This document shows positions 10,760-30,174 of a stretch of 64,000 nt of DNA, in pieces. The notes beneath the pieces were generated by a model. The model did no database searches. It worked only from the letters and a program-made list of their open reading frames with translations, and was not told where the DNA came from. The stretch's first letter is position 1. Each line of letters opens with the position of its first letter. Position numbers and translations under genes: made by a program. This DNA comes from Aminiphilus circumscriptus DSM 16581 (GTDB lineage: Bacteria; Synergistota; Synergistia; Synergistales; Aminiphilaceae). The stretch is from assembly GCF_000526375.1 (NCBI RefSeq), contig NZ_JAFY01000007.1, positions 682,001-746,000 on the forward strand, written 5' to 3'.

Positions 10760-10891
10760 CGGTAATCCCTCCACATGTCGATTCGGAAAAATTGTTACGG
10801 CGCTTACGAGAAGCCTTATATTACCATCACATGAGGGATCTCGAAAACGCACGATGTCTTTCGGAAGCGCTTCCCATCTTCCCGAATGGGG

Positions 10892-10897
10892 TATACT
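10892..10897 (+). promoter_or_regulatory. Possible -10 element for polA
   Basis: TATACT lies about 35 bases upstream of the polA start in the 171-base divergent gap between gltX and polA. No good -35 hexamer is seen at the right distance, so this is weak. Confidence 0.3.
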
Positions 10898-10930
10898 GAG
10901 CGAAACAGGAATCGGAGGATGGAAAAGGCA

Positions 10931-13588
10931 ATGAAAAAAACACTCGCACTCCTTATCGACGGTCACGGGCTCGCCTTTCGCGCCTTCTACGCACTGCCGG
11001 AACTCAACGCTCCCGACGGTACACCAACAAACGCTATCGTGGGGTTTTTGAACATGTTCCAGAAAATTCTCGAGGAATGGACCCCATCCCACGTGGGCAT
11101 CGTCTTCGATGCGAAGGGGCCCACGTTTCGTCATGAAATCTATGCCGCATACAAAGAGGGACGCGTTCCCACCCCGCCGAACTTTTCCAGGCAACTTCCG
11201 CTTTTGAAATCGATACTTCACGCATCGGGATACTGTGTCACCGCACTCGAGGGCATCGAGGCAGACGACGTCCTTGCCGGGACTGCACTCCGTGTGGCCG
11301 CCGAAGGGGCCGAGGTCCTTCTCGTCTCTGCGGACAAGGATATCCTCCAGGTTCTTGGAAACCGAATCCGTGTTCTTCGTCCGAAAAAAGGTGTCTCTTC
11401 CTTTGCCCTGTTCGATGAGGAGATTTTTGTCCGGGAGTATGGATTTCGTCCGGATGCCATGCGAGATTATCTCGCCATAGTGGGGGACGCTGTGGACAAC
11501 ATTCCGGGAATTCCTGGTGTAGGCGATAAAACGGCGCGAAAACTTCTCGGGCACTATGGGTCCTTGGAAAACATCTATTTGTCCCTTTCCGAACTCTCTC
11601 CGACCCTGAAGGGGCGTTTTCTGGAACATCAGGCAACTGTGTGGGCCAGCAGAGATCTCGTGACGCTCTCCATGAAAGAGGCACTTGCCCTTGAGACACT
11701 TCTGCCGCGAAGCGCCGATGAAAAGGGACTGAGGGACCTCTGCTCACGGTTGGGCATGGAACGCTTTTCAGCAAAGATTCTTACTCTGGGAAACGCTTCT
11801 TCGGGAAAAGAAAAAGAATCGGGAGAGACTCCTTCCGAAAACCAGGCTCCGAAAGATGAAAGGACAACACAGGAAAAAGGCGGACTGAAAACGCGTTCTC
11901 TTTCCGAAGAGGTGGAGAACCGAGCCTATCGGACAGTCCCTCTGGACGAATTGTTCCGCGAGGACGAGCTGGCTGTCCATTGGTTTCCAGAGAACGAGGA
12001 ACTTTTCCGAGGCAAGTGTCCAACGCTCTTTCTCGCTTCCAGGGACGGACGCTGCTGGTCCGGATCCCCTGAAAGCGAAGCCTTTTTCGTTCCTTTTTCG
12101 AAATGGGCGGAAAAGGGAACGCTCCTGACGCTTCGCTACAAGACCCTCTGTTCTATTCTTCGTGGAAGAGTGACGTTTTCCCCTGAACGGATCTGGGATG
12201 CCGAGACATCCTTCTATCTGCTACACCCGGACAGAGCATCCATGTCACTGCGAAACACCCTGGAAAGCCAAGGAGTCCCCGCCGATACCACGCCTTTGGC
12301 TGTAACGGAAGCGCTTTGGCGTACTCGTTCCGTTATTCGTCCACAGTTGGAGGAGTTCGGACTGGAGAAACTCCAGCGCTCCATCGACCTGCCTCTCTGT
12401 CCCGTGTTGGTGAGCATGGAACAACACGGCCTCGGCGTACACGAGGCCGCTTTCCTTGAGCTTGAAAAGGATTTGCAACAACGCATCGATGTCATTGAAG
12501 AAGAGCTTACGCAGAACGCGGGTACACAGGTAAACCTGAATTCTCCAAAACAAGTGGGATGGCTCCTTTTCGAAAAGCTTGGCCTTCCTCCGCTGAAGAA
12601 AACAAAAACCGGTTATTCCACGGACGTTTCAGTCCTGCAAATGCTTGCGTCCCGTCCAGGTGGCGACGTTCCCTCGCTGCTCCTCGAACATCGAGAATTG
12701 AGCAAAATGCTCACGGGCTTTGTTCACCCTTTTCTCAAGGCCAGAAATGAAACGACCGGGTGTGTCCATTCCACTTTCGAGCATGTCGTGACCGGAACGG
12801 GACGCCTTTCCAGCACAAATCCAAACGTGCAGAATCTTCCCGTCTTCGGCGAGTGGGCAGGACGTTTTCGAGGCGCACTCGTCCCCAGAGAAAAGGAACA
12901 TCTTTTCGTCGCCGCGGATTATGCCCAGATTGAGCTTCGCATTCTCGGGCATCTTTCTGGAGAAGAACGTCTTCGCACTCTCTTCGTCGAAGAACGAGAC
13001 GTCCACACGGAAACAGCCTCATGGGTCTTTTCCGTCTCACCGGAGAATGTTACCCCGGAGCTTCGGCGCAAGGCGAAAGTCGTGAACTTCGGTCTTCTCT
13101 ACGGAATGAGCGCTTTTGGCCTTGCAGAGCGGCTCGCCGTCGGGAATGAAGAGGCGCAGGAACTGGTTCGACGCTACTTCCAGGTGTTTCCGGGCGTCCG
13201 GGAATACATGGAGGAAACATCCCGGGAGGCTCTCCGCCGAGGATATACGAAAACACTTTTTGGGCGGATCCGCCCTCTGGACGAAGTCGCCACCGTCGAA
13301 GGGCGGGGGAGTGGCGCGTTGAAACGAGTCGCCATCAACACGCCGATTCAAGGAACGGCAGCGGATATCGCCAAGTTGGCCATGATCCGCTTCCACAATC
13401 TGGCCATAAAAAATCTCCCTGAGGCGACGCTCGTTCTCCAGGTTCACGATTCCCTGGTGGTGGAGACGCCTTCCGTCGCCGTTCAAGAAACAGAAAAGGT
13501 TCTTCTCGAAGCGATGCAAGGTGCCGCAGATCTTTCTATCCCGCTCAAAGCCCAACCGAAGCGAGGAAGTTCCATGCGGGATGTCTGA
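10931..13588 (+). CDS. polA: DNA polymerase I
   Basis: An 885-residue family A DNA polymerase for repair and Okazaki fragment processing. Residues 1 to about 290 form the 5'-3' exonuclease (GIEADDVLA, VGDAVDNIPGIPGVG). The C-terminal half has polymerase motif A (AADYAQIELR), the O-helix (AKVVNFGLLYGMSAFG) and motif C (QVHDSLVVE). The middle region lacks the Asp-x-Glu pair of the 3'-5' exonuclease, so proofreading is probably absent, as in several thermophile and Firmicute enzymes. I prefer ATG 10931; an in-frame ATG at 10919 directly abuts the GGAGG site. Confidence 0.95.
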   Translation: MKKTLALLIDGHGLAFRAFYALPELNAPDGTPTNAIVGFLNMFQKILEEWTPSHVGIVFDAKGPTFRHEIYAAYKEGRVPTPPNFSRQLPLLKSILHASGYCVTALEGIEADDVLAGTALRVAAEGAEVLLVSADKDILQVLGNRIRVLRPKKGVSSFALFDEEIFVREYGFRPDAMRDYLAIVGDAVDNIPGIPGVGDKTARKLLGHYGSLENIYLSLSELSPTLKGRFLEHQATVWASRDLVTLSMKEALALETLLPRSADEKGLRDLCSRLGMERFSAKILTLGNASSGKEKESGETPSENQAPKDERTTQEKGGLKTRSLSEEVENRAYRTVPLDELFREDELAVHWFPENEELFRGKCPTLFLASRDGRCWSGSPESEAFFVPFSKWAEKGTLLTLRYKTLCSILRGRVTFSPERIWDAETSFYLLHPDRASMSLRNTLESQGVPADTTPLAVTEALWRTRSVIRPQLEEFGLEKLQRSIDLPLCPVLVSMEQHGLGVHEAAFLELEKDLQQRIDVIEEELTQNAGTQVNLNSPKQVGWLLFEKLGLPPLKKTKTGYSTDVSVLQMLASRPGGDVPSLLLEHRELSKMLTGFVHPFLKARNETTGCVHSTFEHVVTGTGRLSSTNPNVQNLPVFGEWAGRFRGALVPREKEHLFVAADYAQIELRILGHLSGEERLRTLFVEERDVHTETASWVFSVSPENVTPELRRKAKVVNFGLLYGMSAFGLAERLAVGNEEAQELVRRYFQVFPGVREYMEETSREALRRGYTKTLFGRIRPLDEVATVEGRGSGALKRVAINTPIQGTAADIAKLAMIRFHNLAIKNLPEATLVLQVHDSLVVETPSVAVQETEKVLLEAMQGAADLSIPLKAQPKRGSSMRDV

Positions 13589-27905: not shown

Positions 27906-27960
27906 CCCACCTGATTTCTCCCGATCCCACTCGCGAAAGAAAAGCATCCAAGTCGTCCGA

Positions 27961-27993
27961 AAAAAGAGGAGAAGCGTTTCTCCTCTTTTTTTT
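27961..27993 (+). terminator. Rho-independent terminator
   Basis: A 10-bp perfect stem AAGAGGAGAA/TTCTCCTCTT with loop GCGT, extended by A-T pairs, and an eight-T tail. It ends the tig-to-oxidoreductase run. Confidence 0.92.
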
Positions 27994-28039: not shown

Positions 28040-28255
28040 ATGCCCAGTGTGAACGTCCAAGCTCTTCTGTCCATCGGCCTTTTTCTTCTTGCATTGCTTC
28101 TTGCCCGAAGTGTCAATAACATCAATCGAGGAATCTGGCCCGGAGGTTCTGTCTGGGTTTTTTATTTACGTGTCCTTCTGGGGTTTGTCTTCACTGCTTC
28201 CATCGCATTCGCCTTTTACGCGTTTGCGGGAATCGACATTCTGGGCAGAAGGTAG
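28040..28255 (+). CDS. Small two-helix membrane protein of unknown function
   Basis: A 71-residue protein with two predicted membrane helices (about residues 7-22 and 39-62) joined by a short polar loop with NNINRGIWPGGS. GGAGGTG lies about ten bases before ATG 28040. I do not recognise the family. It is eight bases upstream of the exported TPR/propeller gene, is probably co-transcribed with it, and may work with it at the membrane (inference). Confidence 0.7.
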   Translation: MPSVNVQALLSIGLFLLALLLARSVNNINRGIWPGGSVWVFYLRVLLGFVFTASIAFAFYAFAGIDILGRR

Positions 28256-28263
28256 GTCTCAGC

Positions 28264-30174
28264 GTGGTACGACGATGTGTTCTGTCTGCGGTAATCTTCT
28301 TACTGTCGCTTTCCTCGGTGCTCTTTGAACTCCCCCTTGTTCTCCACGGGGATCACGGTATGGCGCAAGCAGTTCCTCAGACCCTACCGGGAGCGAAACG
28401 CGAGGAAGCGGAGCGTCATCTTCTCGCTGCCTATTCCTTCATGGTGCAGCAGCGCTACTGGAAAGCACTGGATTCACTTGAAGTGGCACTGCAGAACAAC
28501 ACCTACCTGGTGGATTATTACCTCATGAAAGGGCTCATTTTGCGGCGGCTTGGAGAAACTGCCGCAGCAGCAGAAGCGTTGTCACATTACCTCGAGGTTC
28601 GCCCTGCCGAACACGCTCCCTCCCGTATTTTTGAAGCTCTTGTCGAAGAGGTGCGTTTTCTGGAACAAGCTCTTGACGGCGACGTCCAGGGGGAGCGTTT
28701 CAGCATTTTTCGCCACACCTCCGAAAGGGCGTTCGCCTTTCCCGGATGGGCTCCTTTTACGCCTCTCGGAATGGGAAAGATGACGGCCGCAGGCTCCCTG
28801 TTCTTCCTCGCAGACACGGAGGGCAACAAGACTTGGATCGTGCGGGAAGGAGGAGGATTCCGCCCTCAAATCCTCTCTTCGGACAGACCCGTCACGGTCA
28901 TCCCGAGAAACGGGGGATCTTTCCTCGTGGTAGGAAGAAGCGGAGATATCGGAGAAGCCTCTCTGGACGCAACAGGACACCTCTCAGGCGATGTGACACC
29001 CATGGGCAGTTTGGGAACATTGGTCGCCGATGCCGTTTCTCTTTCGGGAAACACGTTTTGCGTCGCTGATTGGGGGGAGCGAAAACTCTCCTTTATCGAT
29101 TTTCCCTCTCTCCAAGTGCTTTGGAACTGGTCGCCTGGGACGGAGACTCTTCTCCAACCTTTCGAACCCGTTGCACTGGCTGGACTGGGAGAACTACTGG
29201 CCATAGCGGACCGGGGAAGGGGACGTGTCCTCCTTCTGAATACACGCGCCAGGGCGGTCGAGGCTGAGATCGATGGATTGGAAACGCCCAGGGACATCGC
29301 ATGGACCCCCTGGGGCAGTCTTCTCATCCTCGACGAGCGTGGGGATCTTTACACATGGAAATCCGGAACGCCTCCAGAACGCCTCGTTCGGTTAGAAGGC
29401 GCATGGACCCTGGATGTTCTCGACGGAAAGCCCTTCGTTCTCCACGTATCGGGGAAGTACCTCTGGGAAGGAAAGCCTTTTCCGCCTGTCAACGCGGGAC
29501 TTTTCATGCTCAATCTTTTTACTCCCTCCGTGACTCAAGGCTCCGATCCTGAAGCCATTTTACAGGGATACGTGGGATTTCCCGCTCAAGAGATCCTTCG
29601 TAGACAACGCACCTACACATCTGCCGCTTGGATGGGAAAACAGCTGCAAGGAAACGTGCGCTTTCTTCATCGCTCAGCAATTACACCGTTGGTCCTCCTT
29701 GCTCCGGGGAAGACGCTTGATCATCCCGGAAGTGCTGTCCTTCAGGACGGAGGAGTTCTGCTCCCTGTCCTGCGGCGTTCCGGATGGGATATGGGCATTG
29801 TTCCCACGGACATTATCCTGGACACGGGAATACCTTTTTCCAGGGATGACCTGCGCCGTCTTCTGGCGCTTGCCCTTCACAACGGAATTCGGATACACCT
29901 CTGGGCGCCTTCACAAATTCCGTCACGTTTCCTTGCACGACTCATGCTTCTGACCGGCGGAAGATTGCTCGTCTCGGAAACGCTCGATACCATTGTCACA
30001 CCGGATCCATTCGTGCTCGAAATGCGTTTCCCCCTGCCCGTCGACGCCTTCCCTTCGGGATATCCAAGCGGATCCATGCTTTCCGTTTTCGTCGACAGCG
30101 GTGAACACATCCTCCGGGATTGGTTTCCCTTCTGGCCATCGGGTCTTCGAAGCGCAGAAAATCCCCAAGAATAG
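28264..30174 (+). CDS. Exported TPR and beta-propeller-like protein of unknown function
   Basis: A 636-residue protein that I do not recognise as a named family. It has an N-terminal signal or anchor helix (about residues 5-27), two TPR-like repeats (about 50-118), then repeated blade-like segments rich in NHL/WD-type patterns (about 165-400; for example FCVADWGERKLSFID and LLAIADRGRGRVLLLN). The last part (about 520-590) has a helix-strand-helix pattern (IRIHLWAPSQIP, LTGGRLLVSETLD) that faintly recalls the second half of a vWA fold. Start GTG 28264. The predicted place is the periplasm or cell surface. It is probably transcribed with the small membrane protein before it. Confidence 0.75.
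   Translation: MVRRCVLSAVIFLLSLSSVLFELPLVLHGDHGMAQAVPQTLPGAKREEAERHLLAAYSFMVQQRYWKALDSLEVALQNNTYLVDYYLMKGLILRRLGETAAAAEALSHYLEVRPAEHAPSRIFEALVEEVRFLEQALDGDVQGERFSIFRHTSERAFAFPGWAPFTPLGMGKMTAAGSLFFLADTEGNKTWIVREGGGFRPQILSSDRPVTVIPRNGGSFLVVGRSGDIGEASLDATGHLSGDVTPMGSLGTLVADAVSLSGNTFCVADWGERKLSFIDFPSLQVLWNWSPGTETLLQPFEPVALAGLGELLAIADRGRGRVLLLNTRARAVEAEIDGLETPRDIAWTPWGSLLILDERGDLYTWKSGTPPERLVRLEGAWTLDVLDGKPFVLHVSGKYLWEGKPFPPVNAGLFMLNLFTPSVTQGSDPEAILQGYVGFPAQEILRRQRTYTSAAWMGKQLQGNVRFLHRSAITPLVLLAPGKTLDHPGSAVLQDGGVLLPVLRRSGWDMGIVPTDIILDTGIPFSRDDLRRLLALALHNGIRIHLWAPSQIPSRFLARLMLLTGGRLLVSETLDTIVTPDPFVLEMRFPLPVDAFPSGYPSGSMLSVFVDSGEHILRDWFPFWPSGLRSAENPQE

Follow-up and report, generated by a model that had tools for sequence, protein, structure and literature searches.

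A putatively exported TPR and beta-propeller protein linked to the flagellum in Synergistota

A protein of 636 residues encoded in the genome of Aminiphilus circumscriptus DSM 16581, here called BIG, is linked to the flagellum by its co-occurrence with flagellar genes across Synergistota, by parallel decay and, in one clade, by gene order. Since BIG is kept with flagella and lost with them, it is probably an undescribed flagellar motor protein of Synergistota, exported to the periplasm and soluble there, for which we infer a structural part. Its gene, which begins with GTG, occupies 28264..30174 on the plus strand of the window, by which we mean the whole stretch of 64,000 nucleotides analysed (contig NZ_JAFY01000007.1, positions 682,001 to 746,000). 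It starts 8 bases after a second plus-strand gene, SMALL (28040..28255, ATG start), encoding a two-helix membrane protein of 71 residues with the motif PGG..W..YLR.LLGF. The positions and lengths of the two reading frames and the gap between them, as given by a first-pass annotation of this DNA, were borne out. Both are real genes with relatives across Synergistota, single-sequence searches of 185 genomes giving matches to BIG in 122 and to SMALL in 117. A terminator-like hairpin of 15 pairs with a T-run lies upstream of SMALL (27959..27992, plus strand), and the terminator scan of the window found no such site on the plus strand directly 3' of BIG, so that transcription may continue into the gene that follows; the proposal that the two genes form a small unit of their own thus holds at its upstream end only. 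The 16 named relatives of BIG found in one scan of genome contigs are all labelled Synergistaceae or Fretibacterium, and tblastn against plasmid records gave zero matches.

The annotation had recognised neither protein family, and Pfam and NCBIfam likewise place neither protein in a named family over cut-off. SMALL gave no match at all, and BIG gave only weak TPR matches below the cut-off, among them TPR_9 with an E-value of 0.00024, a model also found at E <= 0.01 in nine of the 16 members of alignment A4. The Pfam NHL model gave no match to the BIG of the window, and PDB sequence searches returned only generic TPR and propeller proteins among the matches listed.

Co-occurrence with flagella was assessed in the same 185 Synergistota genomes, those not listed in the match tables being taken as without a match; the sizes of the presence sets agree with the tallies of the searches. 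A profile search gave 130 hits to BIG, 122 of them strong. The tally leaves out six weak matches (G001-G004, G117, G183) and two truncated remnants (G013, G016), except that G001-G003, which carry the orthologues of family f11 described below, were added back after a search of 28 chosen genomes; weak TPR-type matches from that search (G116, G182) were also left uncounted. Genomes were scored as flagella-positive if they had FlhA or an undecayed FlgI, partial FlgI (for example in G071) counting as present. FlhA was found in 127 of the 185 genomes and FlgI in 123, two of the latter being decayed fragments (G013, G016).

BIG and flagella occurred together in 123 genomes, BIG alone in 2, flagella alone in 10 and neither in 50, giving a phi of 0.85, a value that overstates independence because the genomes are related (120, 2, 13 and 50 without the f11 orthologues, phi 0.82). 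The association is tighter among more complete genomes: the corresponding counts are 86, 0, 3 and 32 for the 121 genomes at least 90% complete (phi 0.94; 84, 0, 5 and 32 without the f11 orthologues, phi 0.90), and 69, 0, 1 and 25 for the 95 genomes at least 95% complete (phi 0.97; 67, 0, 3 and 25, phi 0.92). As a yardstick, FlhA and FlgI, both genuine flagellar genes, track each other with a phi of 0.78, 0.90 and 0.92 in the sets of 185, 121 and 95 genomes, respectively. Two controls were negatively associated with flagella, namely SMALL (phi -0.40 for 185 and -0.36 for 95 genomes) and methylmalonyl-CoA mutase (-0.23 and -0.29). Some genomes have mutase genes in the block shared with BIG and SMALL, and for this reason the family served both as a control and as a candidate neighbour; as the latter it was rejected, since its occurrence does not follow that of BIG (phi -0.30). 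Both genomes with BIG alone are drafts with a completeness of 64 and 65%, and nine of the ten with flagella alone are 77-92% complete. The tenth, G004, is 98% complete and has flhA and flgI with BIG not detected; neither G004 nor G005 gave a BIG match in the search of 28 genomes.

Losses of BIG and of flagella coincide in eight separate places on the taxonomy, within the genera g4, g5, g7 and g8 and within the families f6, f7, f8 and f10. Two genomes of genus g5 (G013, G016) retain FlgI fragments and only positions 390-614 of the 621 positions of the BIG profile, which looks like joint decay of flgI and BIG. These observations weigh on the alternative that BIG is an envelope protein which swimming lineages retain on other grounds, a mere correlate of the flagellum. 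Such a protein might well be encoded outside flagellar gene clusters, as BIG is in most of the families looked at, and the relatedness of the genomes would favour a correlation of this kind. Set against this are the eight coincident losses, the remnants of both genes in G013 and G016, the membership of BIG in a flagellar operon in one clade, and the finding that every BIG-bearing genome of at least 90% completeness has flagellar genes as well; we regard a mere correlate as improbable.

Gene order supports the flagellar link in part of the order. In all five BIG-bearing genomes of families f2, f7 and f10 (G010, G119, G179, G180 and G181) BIG lies 3.25-3.37 kb from flhA, and the four of these five proteins that were included in a tree of 30 proteins form one clade with a support of 100, so that the placement represents a single inherited arrangement. 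The remaining seven families of the order show no BIG close to flhA among the genomes compared, and in the A. circumscriptus genome (G000), which has both flhA and flgI, BIG and flhA are 570 kb apart. The neighbours of BIG look flagellar in some loci; the gene names in L118, L120, L121 and L123 are our reading by eye from the sequence. For one f10 operon (L119, from G179) ten neighbours were tested with Pfam, giving the order flhA, motB, a gene for 151 residues, cheA, BIG and, on the opposite strand, motA, beyond which lie a gene for 221 residues, a gene for a protein with an MgtE_N match and three rod-type genes. The supporting matches are FHIPEP for FlhA, MotB_plug and OmpA for MotB, the CheA domain set, MotA_ExbB and MotA_N for MotA, and Flg_bb_rod in all three rod-type proteins, which by place and length are FlgB, FlgC and FlgG. 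The MgtE_N match, about 2 kb after BIG, scores 25.4 bits, just under the cut-off of 25.9, and the protein is a possible candidate for an E-ring gene product on this sequence match. Two of the ten neighbours had no Pfam match: the 151-residue protein between motB and cheA (L119 5583-6035), and the 221-residue protein between motA and the MgtE_N gene (10877-11539), which is possibly the product of a further undescribed motility gene. The genome of A. circumscriptus itself was searched with the f10 MgtE_N protein without a match; the Pfam model finds in it one MgtE_N protein over the cut-off, 15 kb before flhA, in a stretch that, read by eye, includes hook-type genes.

The position of BIG directly after cheA in the L119 operon would suit a component of chemotaxis or sensing in the periplasm that gives input to CheA and is no part of the motor, as would a 4-base overlap between the reading frames of BIG and a presumed cheA (named by eye) in L121, which arises if the longest frame start is used. 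Yet the same operon mixes cheA with motor, rod and export genes, and apart from its N-terminal signal BIG shows no clear membrane-spanning connection with the cytoplasm. A chemosensory role therefore seems to us very improbable, and a place in the motor remains the preferred reading.

The predicted structure of BIG is that of a multidomain protein. An AlphaFold2 model built from an alignment of 16 sequences (mean pLDDT 81, pTM 0.81) shows an N-terminal hydrophobic helix followed by TPR-type helices, propeller strands and an alpha/beta tail. The N-terminus, modelled with low confidence, would be a putative signal peptide covering residues 1-36, with A-Q-A before residue 37 (28264..28371, plus strand). 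A hydrophobic N-terminal stretch is present in all 29 rows of the BIG alignment A1, and in 27 of the 29 (with row L060 partly masked in this count) no later window of 19 residues exceeds 1.6 on the Kyte-Doolittle scale, the exceptions being L043 (1.75) and L044 (1.64). A hydrophobic start with mostly no later hydrophobic window fits a soluble, putatively exported protein. Five TPR-type helices (43-61, 65-78, 84-95, 99-112 and 117-136) span residues 43-136 (28390..28671, plus strand), the region of the TPR_9 match below cut-off. They are followed at residues 145-406 (28696..29481, plus strand) by a six-bladed NHL-type beta-propeller, which VIA-align superimposes on the designed protein Pizza6 with a Z-score of 24.8 and an rmsd of 2.5 over 238 residues, on the NHL domain of TRIM71 (Z 24.6) and on PknD (Z 24.4). 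The exported protein with TPR repeats and a propeller that the annotation had described was thus upheld by the model, the fold matches and the sequence profile, its export being putative.

The tail of BIG is less clearly assigned. It has a core at residues 471-584 (29674..30015, plus strand) that is completed by flanking strands, and the tail was folded separately with AlphaFold2 (pLDDT 79.6). The best VIA-align match is TFIIH p34 (Z 8.7), with the vWA domains of CLCA1 (7.2) and ITIH1 (6.9) further down; the pilus protein CpaE (7.6) and CheY-like receivers (7.4 and below) score nearly equally, which makes a vWA assignment tentative. Foldseek gave no match to the tail at E <= 0.001; the sole flagellar entry listed, a C-ring structure (8wiw_4, E 0.027), stands among CheY-type matches. 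The DxSxS metal-site pattern is absent from the tail of the window's BIG and occurs in 5 of the 29 rows of A1, scattered and without a single conserved place. Given this lack of conservation and the mixed fold matches, the tail can be called a degenerate vWA domain at most: the possibility of a vWA-like tail raised by the annotation survives as a weak likeness in the models, and the metal site does not. For the whole BIG model, no flagellar structural component was among the 50 PDB matches listed by Foldseek and VIA-align, an absence that says little because these listings are filled by propellers.

The annotation had further proposed that SMALL is the membrane partner of BIG, and this did not survive comparison of the genomes. 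The two genes are not kept together in relatives, and the pair therefore fails as a unit, on the very point by which the annotation had asked to be judged: among the 185 genomes 66 have both, 51 only SMALL and 56 only BIG (phi -0.26). A functional unit of two genes could appeal to their adjacency in 49 of the 66 genomes carrying both, a count that includes a BIG cut by a contig end (G035, G101, G148) or split over two contigs (G028, G157); in the other 17 they lie apart. Genus g16 (43 genomes), however, has BIG with no match to SMALL, and SMALL keeps its surroundings in genomes without BIG or flagella, so that we give the two-gene unit almost no credence. SMALL looks like a separate gene of a conserved block and a mere neighbour of BIG. 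Reading by eye, we take this block to run folC, a pgeF-like gene, Gfo/Idh, SMALL, then BIG, mutase genes or nothing, then meaB, followed presumably by rpiB/upp, a wecA-like gene, wecB and murA. In 12 of 20 fetched loci the surroundings of SMALL were examined, and nine of these loci showed the block, whole or in recognisable part, seven from genomes without BIG (L075, L076, L078, L084, L088, L090, L094) and two from genomes whose BIG sits in the flagellar operon (L077, L079); in L080, L081 and L082 SMALL is placed elsewhere.

Several features of this block are recorded here in their own right. SMALL, with matches in 53 of the 62 genera of Synergistota, represents a compact and well-conserved family of two-helix membrane proteins found mostly in a fixed gene block. 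The interval between SMALL and meaB holds methylmalonyl-CoA mutase-type genes, nothing, or BIG (compare L078, L079 and L090 with L075, L076 and L077), and is an insertion-prone spot within an otherwise stable gene order. In G013 and G016 SMALL is followed directly by the C-terminal third of BIG (L092 4982-5937; G013:C19:250085-250992). The SMALL homologues of genus g37 contain one in-frame TGA in both listed genomes (G135:C80:24207-24419 and G136:C111:8303-8512).

The outgroup family f11 has BIG orthologues of 675-688 residues in three loci. They carry NHL repeats (PF01436, E-values of 9e-23 and 5e-23) and TPR repeats over the Pfam cut-off, and hhalign joins them to alignment A1 with a probability of 99.2 and an E-value of 7e-20 over 478 columns. 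In two of the three loci the orthologue lies beside what we take by eye to be a stretch containing Gfo/Idh. The NCBIfam FlcA model touches the f11 orthologue in its TPR part only (E 0.03), and no FlcD model is among its NCBIfam matches.

The flagellar link of BIG is new here, the annotation having given no function. It supplies a likely function class for a so far unnamed protein present in roughly two thirds of the Synergistota genomes sampled (185), and nominates an undescribed motor component in a diderm lineage. How BIG might act can be proposed from its architecture and company. The short TPR region may attach to a ring encircling the rotor, of the E-ring type formed by FlbB, FlgY or MotE, or on stator-associated proteins, and the propeller and vWA-like tail would then be protein-binding plates that hold or position MotAB stator units. 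This proposal, with BIG as a stator-holding scaffold seated on the E-ring, follows from the likeness of BIG to the spirochete protein FlcD in architecture and company and from the MgtE_N-type E-ring proteins. E-rings are described as formed by FlbB, FlgY and MotE, with an MgtE_N-type domain, in the accessible text of PMC13023049, and PflA as binding the E-ring protein FlgY, with spokes that reach the stators (PMC13023049, PMC11870540, accessible parts). The string 'Synergist' has no occurrence in these two papers; a paper on FliO, by its listing, names Synergistota once (PMC12248157), and a limited literature search, with subscription papers outside it, gave no paper on Synergistota motor structure among its top-ranked results.

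The co-occurrence and gene-order data would also fit a flagellar assembly helper or periplasmic chaperone that stays outside the finished motor, and a 2020 review, in its accessible part, took BB0236, which is FlcD, as a chaperone aiding collar formation (PMC7693769). FlcD has since been placed in the collar by fitting (PMC11750108, accessible part), which argues against a helper role and bears on FlcD, not on BIG. We consider an assembly helper unlikely, and a structural part in the motor the better reading.

BIG can be set beside several known systems. Its propeller has the same six-bladed fold as the PknD sensor domain, TRIM71 and Pizza6 (Z 24-25 over about 240 residues), a likeness to NHL propellers in fold only, with identities of 8-16% among the matches listed. 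The vWA domains of TFIIH p34, CLCA1 and ITIH1 match the core of its tail weakly (Z 6.9-8.7), and BIG is without their conserved metal-site motif. PflA and PflB of Campylobacterota and MotC and MotK of alphaproteobacteria are, like BIG on the reading proposed here, periplasmic motor scaffolds with TPRs, and are rich in them; the accessible parts of the two papers describing them mention no propeller, whereas BIG has one and its TPR region comprises only five helices (PMC13023049, PMC11870540). The nearest known analogue by architecture appears to be FlcD (BB0236) of Borrelia burgdorferi. In the accessible text of a 2025 study FlcD is a beta-propeller protein of the collar, placed by fitting with 16-fold symmetry, that adjoins FlbB and FliL at the collar base (PMC11750108), and the title of a paper cited in PMC8609358 reports BB0236 to be a TPR-domain protein. 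FlcD would thus share with BIG a TPR region and a beta-propeller, a likeness of architecture as described in these papers, whose accessible parts mention neither an NHL type for the FlcD propeller nor a vWA-like tail; the PDB matches listed for BIG include no collar protein. FlcD contacts FlbB of the E-ring, and BIG has a candidate E-ring-type gene nearby in the f10 operon; the role proposed for FlcD at the collar base is, by analogy, the one proposed here for BIG. A difference lies in distribution: the collar, in one of these papers together with its proteins, is called spirochete-specific (PMC8609358, PMC11750108, accessible parts), and BIG comes from Synergistota. We put forward, tentatively and at somewhat less than even odds, that flagellated Synergistota possess a collar-like scaffold on the E-ring with a TPR-propeller base of the FlcD type, and that the collar base is an older part of the motor. 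Should BIG prove to be related to FlcD, ideas on how the spirochete collar arose could be tested outside the spirochetes; were the reading true, the collar base would not be a spirochete invention, and the Synergistota version would add to it a vWA-like tail.
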